A stretch of DNA of 56,363 nt from the NCBI GenBank assembly GCA_020850535.1, contig JADZEM010000206.1:1-56363 (forward strand), in the 5' to 3' direction. Under the pieces are notes generated by a model, which worked only from the letters and a program-made list of their open reading frames with translations, did not search any database and was not told the DNA's origin. The position numbers and the translations under genes are program-made. Shown in pieces: positions 3,407 through 11,913 of this stretch (within the stretch, counting starts at the first letter, position 1; each line of letters opens with the position of its first letter). The stretch comes from Chloroflexota bacterium. Lineage in GTDB: Bacteria; Chloroflexota; UBA6077; JACCZL01.

Positions 3407-3577
3407 CGTCTCCCTGGGCAAGCATGGCCGCCGCCCCGCGGCCGCCACCGAGATGGTACTCCGTGAGCGCCAGATCGCCTCGCCTGTTTGCGGCCCTGCC
3501 GACCACACTCCTACCATCGTCCACGAGAAGGGGTGTGGGTGTCTCGGAATCACCACTCCAGAACGGATGTATCGACC

Positions 3578-4237
3578 ATGAGCGCAGCCTCTGACGAGTT
3601 GATTGAGCGATATCGCACGCTCCCGCCGGCAACTATCGGTCACTTCACGGGCACCGAGATCCTGGACTCCGGGATCAAGCCGCTGTTCACGCCGCTCGCC
3701 GTCGTGGGGCGTGCGCGGACGGTCCGCATGCCGCGCGGCGACGCTTCGATGTCCCGCCCGGCGATTCAGTCGATCCAGCCGGGTGACGTGCTCATCATCG
3801 ACCAGGATGGCGACGATCAGGTGTCCTGCTGGGGGGAGATGACCTCGCTGGCGGCCAAGATGAAGGGCTGCGTCGGCGTGATCATCGAGGGCTCGGCCAC
3901 GGACTGGGCAGAGATCCGTGCCCAGCAGATGCCGACCTGGGCGCGGGCGGTGGTGGCGCGCATCGGCCACCGTCTGGATCGACCCGAGGGCGCGCTGCAG
4001 GTGCCAGTCAGCGTCGGCGGCGTGATCTGCAACCCTGGCGACCTGGTGGTGGCCGACGACAACGGCATCATCATCATGTCGGCTGAGCGGGCCGAGGAGC
4101 TGTATCAGATCTCCCGCGACTCGGAGGATCGCGCGCCGGGCGTCCGTCGCTGGCTGGAGGCCGGCGGCGATCTCGCGGAGCTGGCCGGCCTGAAAATCGA
4201 TCAGATCGAGAAGCTGCTCGAAGAGCGCGGCTGGTAG
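3578..4237 (+). CDS. RraA-like / HMG-aldolase fold protein
   Basis: A 219-residue member of the RraA family (COG0684), which includes RraA proper (RNase E inhibitor) and 4-hydroxy-4-methyl-2-oxoglutarate-type class II aldolases. The swivelling beta-alpha core is recognisable, with GEMTSLAAKMKGCVGVIIEG and the late NPGDLVVADDNGIIIM block. The normal DGxxRD active-site segment reads EGSATD at residues 104-109, so the substrate-binding Arg is replaced by Thr; aldolase activity is therefore doubtful. ATG 3578 is the first start at the family N-terminus. It is divergent from the Gfo/Idh/MocA gene and followed by a strong hairpin at 4282-4316. Confidence 0.85.
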   Translation: MSAASDELIERYRTLPPATIGHFTGTEILDSGIKPLFTPLAVVGRARTVRMPRGDASMSRPAIQSIQPGDVLIIDQDGDDQVSCWGEMTSLAAKMKGCVGVIIEGSATDWAEIRAQQMPTWARAVVARIGHRLDRPEGALQVPVSVGGVICNPGDLVVADDNGIIIMSAERAEELYQISRDSEDRAPGVRRWLEAGGDLAELAGLKIDQIEKLLEERGW

Positions 4238-4455: not shown

Positions 4456-5349
4456 ATGGATCGACACGCGCTGTATCTCGGGCGTGAGTGGAACGTTGAC
4501 CACGATCGGCGGGCGAAGGTCAGCAACGCCGAGCTGCGCTACGCCGTCCTCGGCGAAGGCGAGCCGATCCTCTGCATCCATGGGACGAGTATTGCCGACA
4601 GTCTGATCACCCCGTTGAAGTTCTACCCGCCGCTCTTCGAAGAGTATCAGCTGATCTCCTACTACCGGGCCGGCTACAACGGCAGCACCCTGGAGAAGCC
4701 GACGCTCAGCATCGAAGAGGGTGCCGAGCACGCGAAGCAGCTGCTCGATCACCTGGGCATCGAGAAGGCCCACATCCTGGCGTTTTCGTTCGGCGGCGTC
4801 CTGGGCTTCCAGTTCATGCTCTCCTATCCCGAGCGCGCACACACCGCGACGCTGCTGGAGCCGTACCTGCCTCGCGAGGCCGAGGACGCCGTCAAGGCGA
4901 ACATCGACGCCTACATGAGCGCGATGGAGCTGTATCAACAGGGCGACAAGCTCGGGGCCGGCCTTCGTTACATGGAGGCTGTCTGCGGCCCGCGCTTCCT
5001 GAGCGCCGTCGAGATGACCGGGCCGCTGAACGTCTGGGATCGCGTGGCCGAGAGCATCGAGACGACCTTCGAGGTGGACTTCCCCGCGGTCTCCCAGTGG
5101 GGCTTCCGGATGTCGAAGGCCGACGAGCAGGTCAAGCAGAAGCCAACCATGCCGGTGCTGGCCGTGATGGGCCTCGACAGCGAAGCGGCCATGCCGGGCT
5201 TCCGCGAGACGCAGCGCTTCCTGATGAACTGGCTGCCACACGCCCATCGCGCCGGGATTCAGGGCGCCACCCACGGCATGCAGAGCATGAACCCGGTCGC
5301 CGTGGCCGAGGCCGTTCACGCCTTTGTGAAACAGCACCCGATGCGCTGA
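4456..5349 (+). CDS. Alpha/beta hydrolase
   Basis: A 297-residue alpha/beta-fold hydrolase. The oxyanion-loop HG occurs in ILCIHGTS and the nucleophile elbow is AFSFGG, a small-x-Ser-x-small variant of GxSxG. A candidate acid lies in VMGLDSEA and the catalytic His in GATHGMQ near the C-terminus. Substrate is unknown; ester, lactone or C-C hydrolase activity is possible. ATG 4456 is chosen because AAGGAG lies 7 nt upstream; the ORF to 4402 adds an Arg-rich run without a ribosome site. It opens a plus-strand run that continues with a GMC oxidoreductase 130 nt downstream, with a small hairpin between them. Confidence 0.85.
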   Translation: MDRHALYLGREWNVDHDRRAKVSNAELRYAVLGEGEPILCIHGTSIADSLITPLKFYPPLFEEYQLISYYRAGYNGSTLEKPTLSIEEGAEHAKQLLDHLGIEKAHILAFSFGGVLGFQFMLSYPERAHTATLLEPYLPREAEDAVKANIDAYMSAMELYQQGDKLGAGLRYMEAVCGPRFLSAVEMTGPLNVWDRVAESIETTFEVDFPAVSQWGFRMSKADEQVKQKPTMPVLAVMGLDSEAAMPGFRETQRFLMNWLPHAHRAGIQGATHGMQSMNPVAVAEAVHAFVKQHPMR

Positions 5350-5389: not shown

Positions 5390-5479
5390 CCCAGAAGCAT
5401 CCCGCTCAGCGACCGTTCGCGCGGGTTCGCTTCGAATGGCCAGATTGCACGCACCGCCATCAACGGAAGGAATGTGGGC

Positions 5480-7024
5480 ATGCCTGAGTATCGCGCCGAC
5501 TACGTGATTGTCGGTTCTGGAACGGCCGGTTCGATCCTGGCCGGACGCTTGAGCGAAGACCCGAGCGTCTCGGTGCTGCTGCTCGAATTTGGCGGCATGG
5601 ACAGCAACCCCGCCATCTACGAGAAGCCGCTGACCTCGATGTTCAGCCTCTGGGATCCGAAGGGTGCGGAGAACTGGGGCTACGCCACCGCGCCTCAGCC
5701 CGGCCTGGACGGTCGCGGCATCGACATCGCGCGCGGCAAGGTGCTGGGTGGATCGAGCGCCGTCAACGCGATGATCTACGTGCGGGGCAACCGGCGCGAC
5801 TTCGACAGCTGGGCGTCGCTGGGTGTTGAGGGCCTCAGCTACGACGAGGTGCTGCCCTTCTTCAAGAAGTCCGAGCAGTTCCACGGTGCGCCATCGGACT
5901 ATCACGGCACCGACGGCCCGCTCTCGATCATCGACTACCTGGCCCCGTCGTCGGTCGGGCACGCGTTCATCGAGGCTGCCGCCGAGCTGGGCGCGACGTT
6001 CAAGGGCAACGACTACAACGGCGCACACCAGGACGCCGGTGCGAGCTTCTACCAGTCAACGCGCACGCCAGACGGCGTCCGGGTGACAGCATCCTCGGCG
6101 TTTGTGACGCCGAACCTCGAACGGCCCAACTTGAAGCTGGTCACCGGCGCTCGCGCCACCCGGCTGCTGCTGGACGGCACGAAGGCGACGGGCGTCGAGA
6201 TCGCCACGGCGGACGGTGTCCAGTCGGTCAGTGCCAACCGCGAGGTCATCGTGGCGGCCGGCGCGTTCGAGTCGCCGAAGCTGTTGATGCTCTCGGGGAT
6301 CGGGCCGGCCGACCATCTGCGGAGCGTCGGCATCTCGGTCGTGCAGGATCTGCCGGGCGTTGGACAGAACCTCCAGGATCACCTGCTGCTCGGCGTGGCC
6401 TACGAGTGCACCGAGCCGCTGAACCCGCCGGAGATGCTGGCCGAGGCGGCGCTGTTCACCTACACCGGTGTCAACTCGCGAGACGCCTCGCCGGACCTGC
6501 AGTACTTCTTCGGGCCGGTCCAGTTTGTCGCGCCGGAGTACATGACGGACGGTCCGGGCTTCACCTTCGCGCCGATTGTCGCGCAGCCGCTCAGCCGGGG
6601 CAGCGTGACGCTCGCGTCAACGGACCCGACGGCCCTGGCGAAGGTCGATCCGCGGTACCTGACCCGTGAGGAGGACGTGGCCGTCTTCGAGTACGGCATC
6701 CGCTACGCCCGTGAGCTGGTCCAGACCAGCGCGTTCAGCAAGCTGCGCGGCCGGGAACTGGCGCCCGGGCCAGACGTGACCAGCAGCAACGGTCTCCGCG
6801 CGTACATCCGCAAGAGCGCCAGCACCGTCTGGCATCCGGCCTGTACCTGCCGCATGGGCAGCGGGCCGGACGCCGTGTTGGACTCCCAGTTCAAGGTCTA
6901 CGGCCTGGACGGGCTGCGCGTCGTGGATGCGTCGTCCCTGCCGAAGCTCGTGAATGGCAACCCGAACGCCGCGATCATGATGCTGGCCGAGAAGGCCGCC
7001 GACCTGATCCGCGCCACCGCGTAG
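5480..7024 (+). CDS. GMC family FAD-dependent oxidoreductase (first copy)
   Basis: A 514-residue glucose-methanol-choline oxidoreductase that oxidises an alcohol using FAD. The FAD-binding GSGTAG lies at residues 12-17, with the ribose-binding Glu at 36. Both family signatures are present: RGKVLGGSSAVNAMIYVRGN at 85-104 and GAFESPKLLMLSGIG at 261-275. The active-site His is in VWHPACTCRMG (His452), and the NGNPN segment (492-496) places an Asn in the second catalytic position, as in choline dehydrogenase-type members. ATG 5480 has GGAAGG at a normal distance; a GTG at 5474 is too close to it. The natural substrate is not evident. Confidence 0.92.
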   Translation: MPEYRADYVIVGSGTAGSILAGRLSEDPSVSVLLLEFGGMDSNPAIYEKPLTSMFSLWDPKGAENWGYATAPQPGLDGRGIDIARGKVLGGSSAVNAMIYVRGNRRDFDSWASLGVEGLSYDEVLPFFKKSEQFHGAPSDYHGTDGPLSIIDYLAPSSVGHAFIEAAAELGATFKGNDYNGAHQDAGASFYQSTRTPDGVRVTASSAFVTPNLERPNLKLVTGARATRLLLDGTKATGVEIATADGVQSVSANREVIVAAGAFESPKLLMLSGIGPADHLRSVGISVVQDLPGVGQNLQDHLLLGVAYECTEPLNPPEMLAEAALFTYTGVNSRDASPDLQYFFGPVQFVAPEYMTDGPGFTFAPIVAQPLSRGSVTLASTDPTALAKVDPRYLTREEDVAVFEYGIRYARELVQTSAFSKLRGRELAPGPDVTSSNGLRAYIRKSASTVWHPACTCRMGSGPDAVLDSQFKVYGLDGLRVVDASSLPKLVNGNPNAAIMMLAEKAADLIRATA

Positions 7025-7098: not shown

Positions 7099-7428
7099 AT
7101 GTCCCAGGCACGTGCTCTCGACTTCATGTTGGCGCTCAACTGCAGCCCCAGCATGCTCGCCCGCTATGAAGGCCGGAACCTCTCGCAGGTGCTCTTTCAT
7201 GCCAAGAATGACGGCTACGTCTTCTCGGCTGATGACCTCGCGGATGTGGCCGGCAAGCTCGAAGCCAGCGTGATCTTGAGCAAAGATCAGGAGCAGTTCG
7301 ACGAGACCAGCCACCTGTGGCGTCGCATGTGGGGCCGCCGCCATCTCGGCTACCTCGTCGAACATGTGATCCGCCGCCATTCCGAGTCCGAGCTGCGCGA
7401 TCTGATCGGAAGGGGCGGGTGGGCCTGA
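7099..7428 (+). CDS. Small Nif11-like protein A
   Basis: A 109-residue protein. Residues 1-60 resemble the Nif11 domain known from nitrogen-fixation loci and from Nif11-type RiPP leader peptides: an N-terminal helix (ALDFMLAL), a central V-x(3)-A-x(2)-GYxFSxDDL block, then an acidic helix. The C-terminal part has FD-x(4)-LWRRMWG-x(5)-YLV and is shared with the next gene, so the two are paralogues. There is no GG-type leader cleavage site and no Cys/Ser/Thr-rich core, so a processed peptide is not indicated. The start has GGAAAGGTG upstream. The stop TGA overlaps the next ATG (TGATG), implying coupled translation. Function unknown. Confidence 0.75.
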   Translation: MSQARALDFMLALNCSPSMLARYEGRNLSQVLFHAKNDGYVFSADDLADVAGKLEASVILSKDQEQFDETSHLWRRMWGRRHLGYLVEHVIRRHSESELRDLIGRGGWA

Positions 7429-7739
7429 TGAGCAAGCGCAACGTCATCAGCTTCATGCGCGGACCGGCCTCCGAGAAGGATTTGCTCAACAGCCTCAAGA
7501 CCATGAACAAGGACGAGGTGATGTCGGTGGCCAGCGAGCTGGGCTACCCGTTCACCGACGCCGACTTTGATCCGCTGATCTGGGGCCTGGAAGTCAAGCT
7601 GGCGGCCCGGCGCGGCGAGCCGTTCGACCAGCGCTTCCCGCTCTGGCAGACGATGTGGGGCCAGTACTACTTCGAGTACCTCGTGCTCGACCTGCTCCCC
7701 GCCCTGACCAAGGACGAGATCGAAGCGGCCGTAGCGTAG
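7428..7739 (+). CDS. Small Nif11-like protein B
   Basis: A 103-residue paralogue of protein A. It aligns end to end with one gap: MS at the start, FM at 9-10, the EVMSVASELGYPFTDADF Nif11-like centre, an LE pair, then FD-x(4)-LWQTMWG-x(5)-YLV and an acidic last helix. The first base of its ATG is the last base of the preceding TGA, so the proteins are likely made in similar amounts and may act together as a heteromer. It is followed 28 nt later by a hydrolase gene with its own AGGAGG. A binding or chaperone role for an enzyme of this cluster is only a guess. Confidence 0.75.
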   Translation: MSKRNVISFMRGPASEKDLLNSLKTMNKDEVMSVASELGYPFTDADFDPLIWGLEVKLAARRGEPFDQRFPLWQTMWGQYYFEYLVLDLLPALTKDEIEAAVA

Positions 7740-7767: not shown

Positions 7768-8766
7768 ATGGAGCTGTTCGACCTCGGTGACTTTCCGCTG
7801 CTCTCGGGATACACGCTGCCGGGCGCCAAGCTCTCGTACACCACGCTCGGGACGCTCAGCCCGGCGAAAGACAACGCCGTTCTGTTCCCGCACTTTCTCG
7901 GCGGCGGCCCCGACGCGCTGGCCGCGTGGATCGGCGAAGGGCGGGCGCTCGACCCGAGCAAGTACTTCTTCATTCTGCCGGGCCAGTTCGGCAACGGCGT
8001 CTCGACCTCGCCCAGCAACGCGCCGCCGCCGTTCGACCGTGGGGCGTTCCCGGCCTGCCAGTTCGCGGACGACGTGATCGCGCAGCACAAGCTGGTCACC
8101 GAGCAGTTCGGGATCAGCGAACTGCAACTAGTGCTCGGCTGGTCAACCGGCGGCCTCCAGACCTACGAGTGGGCCGTCCGCTACGCGTCGATGGTCAGGC
8201 GGGTGGCCGCCATCGCCACCGCGCCGAAGCCGTCCCCGTGGACCCGCCTCTGGCTGTTCACGCTGATCGAGGAGCCCCACACGTCGGACCCGGCCTACGA
8301 CCGAGGGTTCTACGCCGACAAGAGCCTGATGCATGCCGGCTTGCGACGGCAGGCCCACGGGACGGCTTTGACGCTGCCGCCGCACGGCTTCTACCGCGAT
8401 GAGCTGTGGCGGAACCTCGGGTTCTCCTCGCTGGACGACTTCATCTCGCGGTTCTGGGAGGCGTTCTGGCTGCCCCAGGATCCGAACGACCTGATCGTGC
8501 AGGCGCGCAAGGCGCGGGCGGCTGACCCCTGCCACGGCGGCGACCTGACCGAGGCGCTGGCGAGGATCACGGCGAAGACGAAGGTCATCGCCTTCACCGG
8601 CGACCCGATGTTCCCGCCGGACGAGGGCAAGGCTGACGCCGCGAAGATCCGCGGGGCCAGTTTCGCCCAGATCGACAGCATCTACGGGCACCTTGCGACC
8701 TTTCAGCTCAGCGGCGACGACGTGAAGGCCGTCGAGGCGGAACTGGCTGCGCTGCTGGCGTCCTAG
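7768..8766 (+). CDS. MetX-like alpha/beta hydrolase / acyltransferase
   Basis: A 332-residue alpha/beta-fold protein of the homoserine O-acetyltransferase-like group (COG2021). The nucleophile elbow is GWSTGG with Ser126, the acid is in FTGDPMFPP (Asp279) and the His in YGHLATF (His308), giving a complete triad in the usual order. True MetX enzymes have GGSMGGM at the elbow, so methionine biosynthesis is not supported, and no MetY or other met gene is nearby. Probably an esterase or acyltransferase working with the GMC enzymes. ATG 7768 has GAGGAGGAG upstream and lies 28 nt after Nif11-like gene B. Confidence 0.85.
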   Translation: MELFDLGDFPLLSGYTLPGAKLSYTTLGTLSPAKDNAVLFPHFLGGGPDALAAWIGEGRALDPSKYFFILPGQFGNGVSTSPSNAPPPFDRGAFPACQFADDVIAQHKLVTEQFGISELQLVLGWSTGGLQTYEWAVRYASMVRRVAAIATAPKPSPWTRLWLFTLIEEPHTSDPAYDRGFYADKSLMHAGLRRQAHGTALTLPPHGFYRDELWRNLGFSSLDDFISRFWEAFWLPQDPNDLIVQARKARAADPCHGGDLTEALARITAKTKVIAFTGDPMFPPDEGKADAAKIRGASFAQIDSIYGHLATFQLSGDDVKAVEAELAALLAS

Positions 8767-8873: not shown

Positions 8874-10469
8874 GTGGCAGACGCGAACAGCTTCGACTAT
8901 GTGATCGTCGGCTCGGGGCCGGGTGGCTCGACGCTGGCCTATCGCCTGGGTGAGGATCCGGACGTCAAGATCCTGGTGCTCGAAGCCGGCGGCAAGGCCA
9001 TTGAGAGCGCGATGTCGCCGGCGATCCAGTCGCCGTTTCGCTGGAACGAGCTGCTGCTGACCGAGCTGGACTGGGCCTACAACGGCGTGCCGCAGCCCGG
9101 ACTGGCCGGCCGGCAGGTCTACTCGGCGGCCGGGCGCGGCACCGGCGGCAGCTCGATGGTCTACCACATGATGCACGTCCGCGCCCGGCCGGCAGACCTC
9201 GATAGCTGGGCCTACCACGGCGCGACCGGTTGGAGCTATCAGGAGACGCTGCCGTACTACCAGAAGCTGGAGAACCAGCTCGACGATACCAACCCGACGG
9301 CCGGCAAGGGCGGTCCCATCACCGTCGTCAATGCGAAGGACACCGGCAACCCGGTCTCCCAGAGCTGGCTGGATGCCTGCGTCGAGCTGGGCTACCCGCT
9401 GATCGACGACTTCAACGCCTCGCTGTTCGGGGCCGGCTGGCACCACCTCGACATGAAGGACGGCCAGCGGGGCGGCGTCCTGACCTCGTATCTGCTGCCG
9501 GCCCTGGCGCGGGGCAACGTCACGGTGCGGACCGGCGCGCTCGCGACCGGCCTCGTCATCGAGAACGGGAAGTGCGTCGGCGTCCAGTACGTCGCGGACG
9601 GGCAGACGCAGATCGTGCGGGCTGAGCGCGAGGTGGTGGTGGCGTGCGGCGCGATTGAGTCGCCCAAGCTGCTGATGCTCTCGGGTATCGGCGACCCGGC
9701 TCACCTGAAGGAGGTCGGCATCGGGGTCAACGTCGAGTTGCCGGGCGTCGGCAAGAACTTCCACGATCACCCGCTGCTGATCGGCCCCATCGGGATGATG
9801 GACAGGCCCGGCCCGGACCCGCGGGGCAACATGACGGAGGTCGGGCTGTTCTGGCCGTCCGTCCAGGGCATGCCGGTGCCCGACCTTGAGATCTGCCTCG
9901 TGCACCGCGCGCCGTTCGGGCAGGCATTCTTCGAGAACGTCGTGAAGCGAGTGCAGACCGGTCAGCCCGTCAAGTCGGCCACGCAGCTGGTGGACCCACA
10001 CGTCGTGCTGACGCTGCCCGGGCTGGTGCAGCCGCTCTCGCGCGGGGCGATCACCCTCCGCGGCAGCGATCCGTCCGTCTACCCGAACGTCGATGCGAAC
10101 TACTTCGCCGAGTCCTGGGATGTGGACCGGATGGTCCAGATGGTGAAGATCGGCCGCGAGATCTACGCCAGCAACGCCTTCAAGGCGTGGGGCATGCAGG
10201 AGGTCGCGCCAGGACCGAGCGTGGCCTCGGACGCCGATCTGCGTGACTGGGTGACCAACAACGTCGGGTCGTACTACCACTTTGTCGGCTCGTGCAAGAT
10301 GGGCGTCGACAGCCTGGCGGTGGTGGACCCGTCGCTGAAGGTGCGCGGAGTGGACGGCGTGCGGGTCGTGGACGGCTCGGTGATGCCGTCGATCCCGGCC
10401 GCCAACACCCACACGACCATCGTGATGATCGCGGAGAAGGCCGCCGACCTGATCAAGTCCGGGAAGTAG
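8874..10469 (+). CDS. GMC family FAD-dependent oxidoreductase (second copy)
   Basis: A 531-residue GMC oxidoreductase, clearly different from the first copy. FAD-binding GSGPGG lies at about residues 13-18, signature GRGTGGSSMVYHMMHVRA around 85-105, and GAIESPKLLMLSGIG in the middle. The catalytic pair is His469 (YYHFVGSCKMG) and His513 (NTHTTIVMIAEKAAD). This is a His-His pair, whereas the first GMC protein has His-Asn, so the two may oxidise different alcohols. The start is GTG 8874 with GGAGGAGA upstream. A heptanucleotide repeat begins 4 nt after the stop. Confidence 0.92.
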   Translation: MADANSFDYVIVGSGPGGSTLAYRLGEDPDVKILVLEAGGKAIESAMSPAIQSPFRWNELLLTELDWAYNGVPQPGLAGRQVYSAAGRGTGGSSMVYHMMHVRARPADLDSWAYHGATGWSYQETLPYYQKLENQLDDTNPTAGKGGPITVVNAKDTGNPVSQSWLDACVELGYPLIDDFNASLFGAGWHHLDMKDGQRGGVLTSYLLPALARGNVTVRTGALATGLVIENGKCVGVQYVADGQTQIVRAEREVVVACGAIESPKLLMLSGIGDPAHLKEVGIGVNVELPGVGKNFHDHPLLIGPIGMMDRPGPDPRGNMTEVGLFWPSVQGMPVPDLEICLVHRAPFGQAFFENVVKRVQTGQPVKSATQLVDPHVVLTLPGLVQPLSRGAITLRGSDPSVYPNVDANYFAESWDVDRMVQMVKIGREIYASNAFKAWGMQEVAPGPSVASDADLRDWVTNNVGSYYHFVGSCKMGVDSLAVVDPSLKVRGVDGVRVVDGSVMPSIPAANTHTTIVMIAEKAADLIKSGK

Positions 10470-10629: not shown

Positions 10630-11913
10630 TTGGCCTTCTGGCCGCTTCGTCGCCCGACGCTCGGGCCGCTCGAACCGTGGCAGCGCAACCAGTACATCGT
10701 CGTCCTCACGGTGGCGCTCGCGCACATCGCGTTCGACCTGACCCAGCCGTTCATCCCGCTCTACGTCTTCGAGCTTGGCATCACCGACCTTGACGAGGCC
10801 TCGTTCTGGTCGGGCGTGATCGTCGGGATTGGGCCGCTGATGGGCTCGATCATGGGGCCGTTCTGGGGCTCCCTGGCCGACAAGTACGGGCGCAAGCCGA
10901 TGGTGCTGCGCGCCCTGGTGATGATCGGCGTGCTCCAGGTCGCCATCGCGTTCGTGACCGACATCTATACGCTGGTCGGCCTGCGGGTCGTCATGGGCAT
11001 CTTCGCCGGCTTCACCCCGATGGCGATGGCCCTGGCGATCGCCATCGGCCCACGCGACAAGATGGCCCATGCTATCGGGCTGGTGCAGGCGGCGACGTTC
11101 CTGCCGCTCGCCATTGGCCCGACCATCGGGGGCGTCCTCTCCGACACCTACGGCCTGCGGTTCAACTTCATGCTGACGGGCGTGCTGCTGCTGGCCCCGG
11201 CCGCGCTGCTCTACTTCATGGTGCAGGAGAACAGCTACGGCGAGCCGGTCAGGAAGGGGACGAGCGGCGCGGAGAAAGTGGATGACGGCGAGCGCGGCTC
11301 GTTCTTCTCGCTGCTGGCACTGCCCGGCTTCGGTGCGGCCCTCGCCATCCTCTTCCTGACGCGCTTCACGGATCGTGCGCTGACGCCAGTCATCCCGCTC
11401 TACCTGCTGAAGCTCGACACGCCGGCCAGTCAGCTCGCGACGATCACCGGCTTCGTCGTCGCGGCGGGCGCTATCGCGGCGGCCGGCTCCTCGGTGCTGT
11501 ACGGCAAGTGGGCACGGCCCGGGAATACCCGAAAGCTGCTGATGCTGGCGCTGGCCGGTGGCGCGCTGTTCTCGGGGTTGATCTCGTTCGTCGGCGGCTG
11601 GGGTGAGGTCGCGCTGCTGCGGATCGGGCTGGGGTTGCTGGCCGGCGGCAGCATGAGCCTCGCCTACACCCTCGGAGCGACGCTCGCGCCGGCCTCGCGG
11701 TCGGGCCTGACGCTCTCGACGCTGTCAAGCTGCGGCCAGCTTGGCGGCGCGCTCGCCCCCATCGCCGCCGGGGCGATTGGCGGCGTCAGTCTGGCGGCCG
11801 TTTTCGTCACCAACGCGGTGGCCTATCTGGTGGCGCTGGGCCTGTCGGCGCTGCCGTCTGTGGCGCGTGCCACCGCGAAGACGGCCGACGAGCGTGCTCC
11901 CGTTGCGTCCTGA
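10630..11913 (+). CDS. MFS transporter
   Basis: A 427-residue, 12-helix major facilitator protein. Motif A appears as GSLADKYGRKPM between helices 2 and 3, and there is a Glu/Lys/Arg-rich central loop at about 205-220. The start is TTG 10630, because no ATG or GTG occurs earlier in frame before the N-terminal cytoplasmic segment; the ribosome site (GGGGCAG) is weak. It may export or import the substrate or product of the GMC and hydrolase cluster, an inference from position alone. A truncated SMP-30-like reading frame follows 64 nt downstream. Confidence 0.88.
   Translation: MAFWPLRRPTLGPLEPWQRNQYIVVLTVALAHIAFDLTQPFIPLYVFELGITDLDEASFWSGVIVGIGPLMGSIMGPFWGSLADKYGRKPMVLRALVMIGVLQVAIAFVTDIYTLVGLRVVMGIFAGFTPMAMALAIAIGPRDKMAHAIGLVQAATFLPLAIGPTIGGVLSDTYGLRFNFMLTGVLLLAPAALLYFMVQENSYGEPVRKGTSGAEKVDDGERGSFFSLLALPGFGAALAILFLTRFTDRALTPVIPLYLLKLDTPASQLATITGFVVAAGAIAAAGSSVLYGKWARPGNTRKLLMLALAGGALFSGLISFVGGWGEVALLRIGLGLLAGGSMSLAYTLGATLAPASRSGLTLSTLSSCGQLGGALAPIAAGAIGGVSLAAVFVTNAVAYLVALGLSALPSVARATAKTADERAPVAS

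Follow-up and report, generated by a model that had tools for sequence, protein, structure and literature searches.

Two small neighboring genes, named here A and B, were found in the window (the whole stretch of 56,363 nucleotides of Chloroflexota DNA that was analyzed). These genes were always detected as a pair beside the genes of two FAD-dependent, alcohol-oxidizing enzymes of the GMC family, GMC1 and GMC2, across five phyla, and this suggests that their products are working partners of the two GMC enzymes and not peptide precursors. The best explanation, to which we assign a probability of roughly 55%, is that A and B together form a small, folded, cytoplasmic heteromer, a dedicated accessory of the two-enzyme oxidation step of GMC1 and GMC2. 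No description of the A/B pair was found in the literature searched, and nothing relevant was obtained on Nif11 together with GMC or on the genes of the cluster. The two genes and the block that they share are as follows:

7099–7428, forward strand: gene A, an open reading frame of 109 amino acids, with a Nif11-like N-terminal part (7099–7239) followed by a C-terminal WxxMWG domain.
7428–7739, forward strand: gene B, 103 amino acids, with a Nif11 domain (7428–7568) followed by a C-terminal WxxMWG domain.
7297–7359, forward strand: FDETSHLWRRMWGRRHLGYLV, the block of gene A with the pattern FD-x(4)-LWxxMWG-x(5)-YLV.
7623–7685, forward strand: FDQRFPLWQTMWGQYYFEYLV, the block of gene B with the pattern FD-x(4)-LWxxMWG-x(5)-YLV.

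A preliminary description of this DNA had presented A and B as adjacent genes joined by a TGATG overlap, with products aligning over their full length with one gap, and the open reading frames and the alignment bore this out. The sequence TGATG contains the stop codon of A and the start codon of B, which overlap by 1 base in the window. The two proteins could be aligned over their entire length, a single internal gap being needed (26% identity, E 2e-11 by pairwise BLASTP), and each of them retrieved only the other when the whole 7.65 Mb of its own genome was searched (E 1.2e-5). The conserved block pointed out in the same description is complete in both proteins of the window, but the wider family is less strict: WxxMWG and the Tyr after it persist in both lineages, whereas FD and YLV are typical of only some members. 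The residues M1, A35, E55, W73, M76, W77, and G78 were invariant in 22/22 members. Comparisons between related loci gave dN/dS values of 0.05–0.27 for A and B, indicating purifying selection. Chance open reading frames were ruled out by these values, well below 1, and by the homologues in five phyla.

Homologous pairs were found in 14 loci, including the window, from Chloroflexota, Actinomycetota, Pseudomonadota, Myxococcota, and Cyanobacteriota. Two of these pairs, detected by a protein search of plasmids, are located on plasmids of Nostoc sp. ATCC 53789 and Gemmobacter aquarius. Scanning genome contigs with a profile built from three B proteins yielded eight further loci, in an Actinobacteria MAG, Streptomyces diastatochromogenes, Actinoplanes sp. 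KI2, a Rhodospirillales MAG, Calothrix, Corallococcus sicarius, Mastigocoleus, and a Rhodobacteraceae MAG, and whole-genome searches contributed another three, all close to the form on the Nostoc plasmid, from the order of Calothrix. The preliminary description had considered that the absence of Nif11 similarity, a lack of conservation of the pair or its block, or unrelated neighbors around its homologues would speak against it; none of these outcomes occurred, and the pair and its WxxMWG block were conserved in the 13 other loci.

The distribution of the pair was rare and patchy. It was present in 1/296 Streptomyces genomes, 4/293 of the order of Calothrix, 1/296 of a Rhodobacteraceae family sample, 2/201 of the Actinoplanes family, and 1/145 of the order of Corallococcus, these rates being based on subsamples and on an initial filter by which only part of the candidates were scored. 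In every carrier genome the family was represented by exactly two full-length proteins, with their genes side by side. The scattered occurrence and the plasmid locations point to the spread of A and B by horizontal transfer. A vertical trait of the lineage of the window was rejected, since its genome was the sole carrier among 350 Chloroflexota and among 29 members of its class, and a phage or viral origin was also rejected, as no relative appeared in IMG/VR or in phage records.

The phylogenetic analysis of 28 proteins separated all of the A sequences from all of the B sequences with a support of 100/99, and the branching was alike within the two halves (A–B distance correlation of 0.89). This split, with both copies present in 14/14 loci, indicates a single duplication before the family spread. 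A precedes B, adjacent to it, in 14/14 loci; the genes overlap by 1–8 bases in eight of them and are separated by 10–287 bases in the others. Two ancient paralogous lineages that are always kept together agree with the heteromeric pair proposed previously, and a physical pairing of the two proteins seems probable. Counting against a dedicated accessory of the GMCs, both have diverged faster than these enzymes, with a mean identity of 0.39 for A and 0.47 for B, compared with 0.61 and 0.65 for the GMCs.

The genes surrounding A and B in the window that bear on their function are the following:

4456–5349, forward strand: second alpha/beta hydrolase, with a Nostoc orthologue at 72% identity; present in 10/14 loci.
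5474–7024, forward strand: GMC1, a GMC-family FAD oxidoreductase (PF00732 and PF05199) with an active-site pair of the His454/Asn498 type; present in 14/14 loci.
7768–8766, forward strand: MetX-like alpha/beta hydrolase (PRK07581, NF005757, 339 bits against a cut-off of 332); present in 11/14 loci.
8874–10469, forward strand: GMC2, a GMC-family FAD oxidoreductase (PF00732 and PF05199) with an active-site pair of the His469/His513 type; present in 14/14 loci.
9912–9992, forward strand: extra segment of GMC2 (residues 347–373) recognized in the alignment, a candidate docking surface.

Once the neighborhoods of all the pairs were compared, A, B, GMC1, and GMC2 were found together in 14/14 loci (GMC1 being cut by the contig end in locus L014), and the two GMCs were the only genes that accompanied A and B in every locus, while the other neighbors varied. 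The order of the genes was not maintained: it is hydrolase-GMC1-A-B-MetX-GMC2 in the window, EthD-A-B-GMC1-GMC2-MetX in Nostoc, and GMC1-GMC2-hydrolase-MetX-A-B-EthD in Corallococcus, and Streptomyces has A-B-GMC1-GMC2 alone. A constant content despite such reshuffling is strong evidence of a functional linkage. The link to GMC oxidoreductases suggested in the preliminary description was therefore supported, with two GMCs beside every pair. Its extension to the flanking hydrolases held in part, the MetX-like hydrolase being a frequent companion but not an obligate one.

Natural controls were provided by clusters that carry EthD, ThDP, DJ-1, ThiJ-like, or AGE genes without the GMC pair. Streptomyces plasmids (L046–L048) and Nostoc edaphicum (L049) have many of these accompanying genes without GMC1 and GMC2, and A and B are missing from them too. 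In the order of Calothrix (Nostocales), eight genomes contain a single GMC with 54–58% identity to GMC2, and none of them has A or B; in six of the eight this GMC sits within that core set, accompanied instead by SnoaL-like, VOC, or tautomerase genes. Conversely, when GMC2 homologues were searched among 72,556 plasmids, at least 60% identity was reached only in the two A/B records, the next best being 40%, and among 286 genomes of the order of Calothrix an identity of at least 78% was found in exactly the four A/B genomes. As the same set of genes without GMC1 or a close GMC2 was also without A/B, the two small genes follow the GMC pair and not the rest of the pathway.

These controls also bear on the idea that A and B act on some other shared partner, such as the EthD protein or the alpha/beta hydrolases, and merely travel with the GMC genes. 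EthD was present in 12/14 loci, it also appears on contig C122 of the genome to which the window belongs, and its distances correlated with those of A (0.78) and B (0.82). However, EthD occurs without A/B in the Streptomyces plasmids and in Nostoc edaphicum, three loci (L012, L015, and L017) keep A and B in the absence of the hydrolases, and only GMC1 and GMC2 were present in all loci, so we regard this proposal as rather unlikely. A point against the accessory reading is that the distances of A or B correlated less well with those of the GMCs (0.61–0.79) than the distances of EthD did (0.93–0.95), and these correlations of A and B may reflect just joint transfer.

The frequent presence of the two alpha/beta hydrolases, in 11/14 and 10/14 loci, and the small helical fold of A and B would also fit a pair of carrier proteins, to which an intermediate of the pathway would be covalently attached for oxidation by GMC1 and GMC2 before the hydrolases set it free. 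Nevertheless, no Ser, Cys, or Lys that could serve as an attachment site was invariant in both A and B among the 22 members, which speaks against a covalent carrier, and neither a ligase nor a phosphopantetheinyl transferase was found among the conserved genes. The MetX-like hydrolase is, moreover, missing from the same three loci, L012, L015, and L017. A carrier function is therefore unlikely, and the cofactor delivery put forward as a possibility in the preliminary description likewise gains no positive support from the conserved residues.

The relationship of A and B to Nif11 proteins, whose function has been described as not known (PMC2887384), was checked by profile searches. B matched PF07862 with 27.0 bits over residues 1–47 (cut-off 23.8), and it was the sole Nif11 match of its genome. 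The A protein of the window gave no Pfam match on its own, although it is homologous to B, while the Nostoc A and B proteins scored 37.2 and 42.6 bits against the same model. A match to Nif11 at E ≤ 0.01 was obtained for 17/22 members of the family, and a joint A+B profile matched the solved Nif11 protein 9zn4 over columns 1–51 (E 1.4e-4). The kinship with Nif11 proposed beforehand was thus upheld. The resemblance to the PF07862 family comprises the N-terminal 47 residues, where B and most of its relatives fit the Pfam model; by contrast with that family, A and B carry a further conserved domain, around 50 residues long and containing WxxMWG, and they form an obligate two-member set with GMC oxidoreductases instead of nif genes or RiPP machinery.

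RiPP precursors with Nif11-related leaders are known (PMC2887384), and the PF07862 domain and the RiPP precursor label given automatically to the Nostoc copies would agree with A and B being a Nif11 leader plus a core, in which case the GMC oxidoreductases would be new modifying enzymes. The evidence is against it. With the RiPP leader model TIGR03798 (cut-off 32.3), B reached 14.6 bits, A gave no match, and the Nostoc copies remained below the cut-off with 28.2 and 29.0 bits. No conserved GG cleavage site was found in the A or the B lineage. A variable core was also lacking, the most conserved block being the C-terminal half, which is kept across phyla and is predicted to be folded. LanM, YcaO, radical SAM, and peptidase-ABC genes were absent from the conserved genes of the cluster, and no RiPP modifying enzyme or exporter was detected among the annotated genes of the loci L009 (Nostoc) and L010, among the Pfam matches around the Streptomyces and Corallococcus loci (L012 and L016), or beside the pair in the window. 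In addition, there are exactly two members per genome, without paralogous expansion. A and B share the Nif11 N-terminal part with the Nif11-derived leaders (TIGR03798, N11P, prochlorosin-type), but differ from them in all of these features: score, cleavage site, core, modifying enzyme, transporter, and expansion. On the basis of the TIGR03798 score, the cleavage site, the core, and the genomic context, a role as RiPP precursors, which we consider very improbable, was rejected, as the preliminary description had also concluded. The public naming of the Nostoc homologues (L009, 9676–10336) as RiPP precursors, despite TIGR03798 scores under the cut-off, is likely a misnaming.

Structural models of both proteins were built with AF2 on nine-row alignments. 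The model of B was helical (mean pLDDT 87.9, pTM 0.79) and folded through the C-terminus, and that of A was also helical (mean pLDDT 77.9, pTM 0.72), approximately residues 61–80 being the least certain. The C-terminal half was predicted to be ordered in both, and such a predicted ordered half is unlike a RiPP core. No PDB fold match was obtained with Foldseek for either protein. Small helical proteins without a catalytic motif could also be regulators of the cluster, binding protein or DNA, but A and B showed no DNA-binding Pfam domain and no match to a regulator fold, and in the window their genes lie inside a run of enzymes, between GMC1 and MetX; a regulatory function is likewise judged very improbable. 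It is conceivable, if highly improbable, that the invariant W-x-x-M-W-G and the following Tyr do more than pack the fold and host a protein-derived redox group or provide a surface for electron relay that serves the GMC pair; if this were true, A and B would be a new type of redox partner built on the Nif11 fold.

In the accessory heteromer that we favor, the translationally coupled helical proteins A and B would pair up, a heterodimer being the simplest form, and the pair would bind GMC1, GMC2, or both. The Nif11 part would then be a structural binding domain and not a cleavable RiPP leader. Binding could stabilize the GMCs, gate the active site, or hold both enzymes together so that the product of either oxidation is passed to the other, and the adjacent alpha/beta hydrolases and the EthD protein may act on the same metabolite. 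The co-occurrence, the pairing of the two genes, and the constraint on them are established here; we infer the A–B contact, the contact with the GMCs, and the effect of the latter. The earlier reading was supported in part, namely in its Nif11 kinship, its exclusion of RiPP precursors, its heteromeric pair, and its GMC link.

The catalytic residues are retained in both GMCs, although the dyads differ (His-Asn in GMC1, His-His in GMC2). The segment of residues 347–373 in GMC2 exceeds by about 20 residues its counterpart in GMC1 and in the nearest GMCs from genomes without A/B, and it follows a pattern close to PFGxxFFxxVxxRxQTxQP in 8/9 of the aligned members; the Streptomyces protein (L012) has a divergent version. 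This region varies in length across the family, and since the solved relative 8b7s has a comparable length there, the idea that the segment is unique among GMCs was dropped and it is considered a candidate docking site only.

Two known systems were compared with this one. GMC1 and GMC2 scored 308.9 and 303.6 bits on the model of the mycofactocin GMC dehydrogenase MftG (TIGR03970; PMC11778925), below its cut-off of 387.45, and in that system a GMC enzyme is also tied to a small gene product. The cluster, however, has neither a mycofactocin precursor nor a radical SAM gene, and A and B are about 100 residues long and predicted to be folded. A possible analogue is the FAD glucose dehydrogenase, a GMC oxidoreductase with a dedicated small partner that acts as a Tat hitchhiker (PMC6719666). 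This enzyme shows that a small protein can be dedicated to a GMC enzyme as its partner, but here there are two small partners and two GMCs, with no cytochrome gene nearby, and the 22 A/B members gave no Pfam match to known GMC small subunits. As no recognizable signal peptide was seen by inspection at the starts of A, B, GMC1, or GMC2, a Tat hitchhiker role is unlikely for A and B.

If the proposed function is correct, A and B would be accessory proteins of a new type, serving soluble GMC oxidoreductases; among the members of this enzyme family are alcohol oxidases used in biotechnology. Attention to Nif11 has been mostly on its use in RiPP leaders, and the pair offers a small and concrete system for testing a non-RiPP role. 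Its constant two-enzyme company across phyla also warns against naming RiPPs from a Nif11 domain alone.

Regarding the wider surroundings, an RraA-like aldolase (3575–4237) and an MFS transporter (10630–11913) flank the cluster on the same strand in the window and are not conserved in the other loci. An AGE-type epimerase, a DJ-1 protein, a ThiJ-like protein, a ThDP enzyme, and an amylase-family enzyme were found near many of the loci, and these frequent neighbors suggest a carbohydrate-linked small-molecule pathway. The genome of the window has this set, together with EthD, on contig C122 (L064, 3238–12291), apart from the window. Proteins with an FGE-type (sulfatase-modifying-factor) domain adjoin the set in this genome (L064, 10641–11516), and a weakly scored one lies beside GMC1 in Corallococcus (L016, 2839–4386). 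The set is paired with interchangeable cassettes (L046, L047, L048, L049, and L066–L071), consisting of two GMCs with A/B, of one GMC with SnoaL, VOC, and tautomerase genes, or of EthD with ankyrin and muconolactone isomerase genes. It has the appearance of an undescribed pathway that is fed by carbohydrate and whose tailoring parts can be exchanged, and on the Streptomyces plasmids it adjoins maltokinase, GlgX, GlgE, and GlgB genes.
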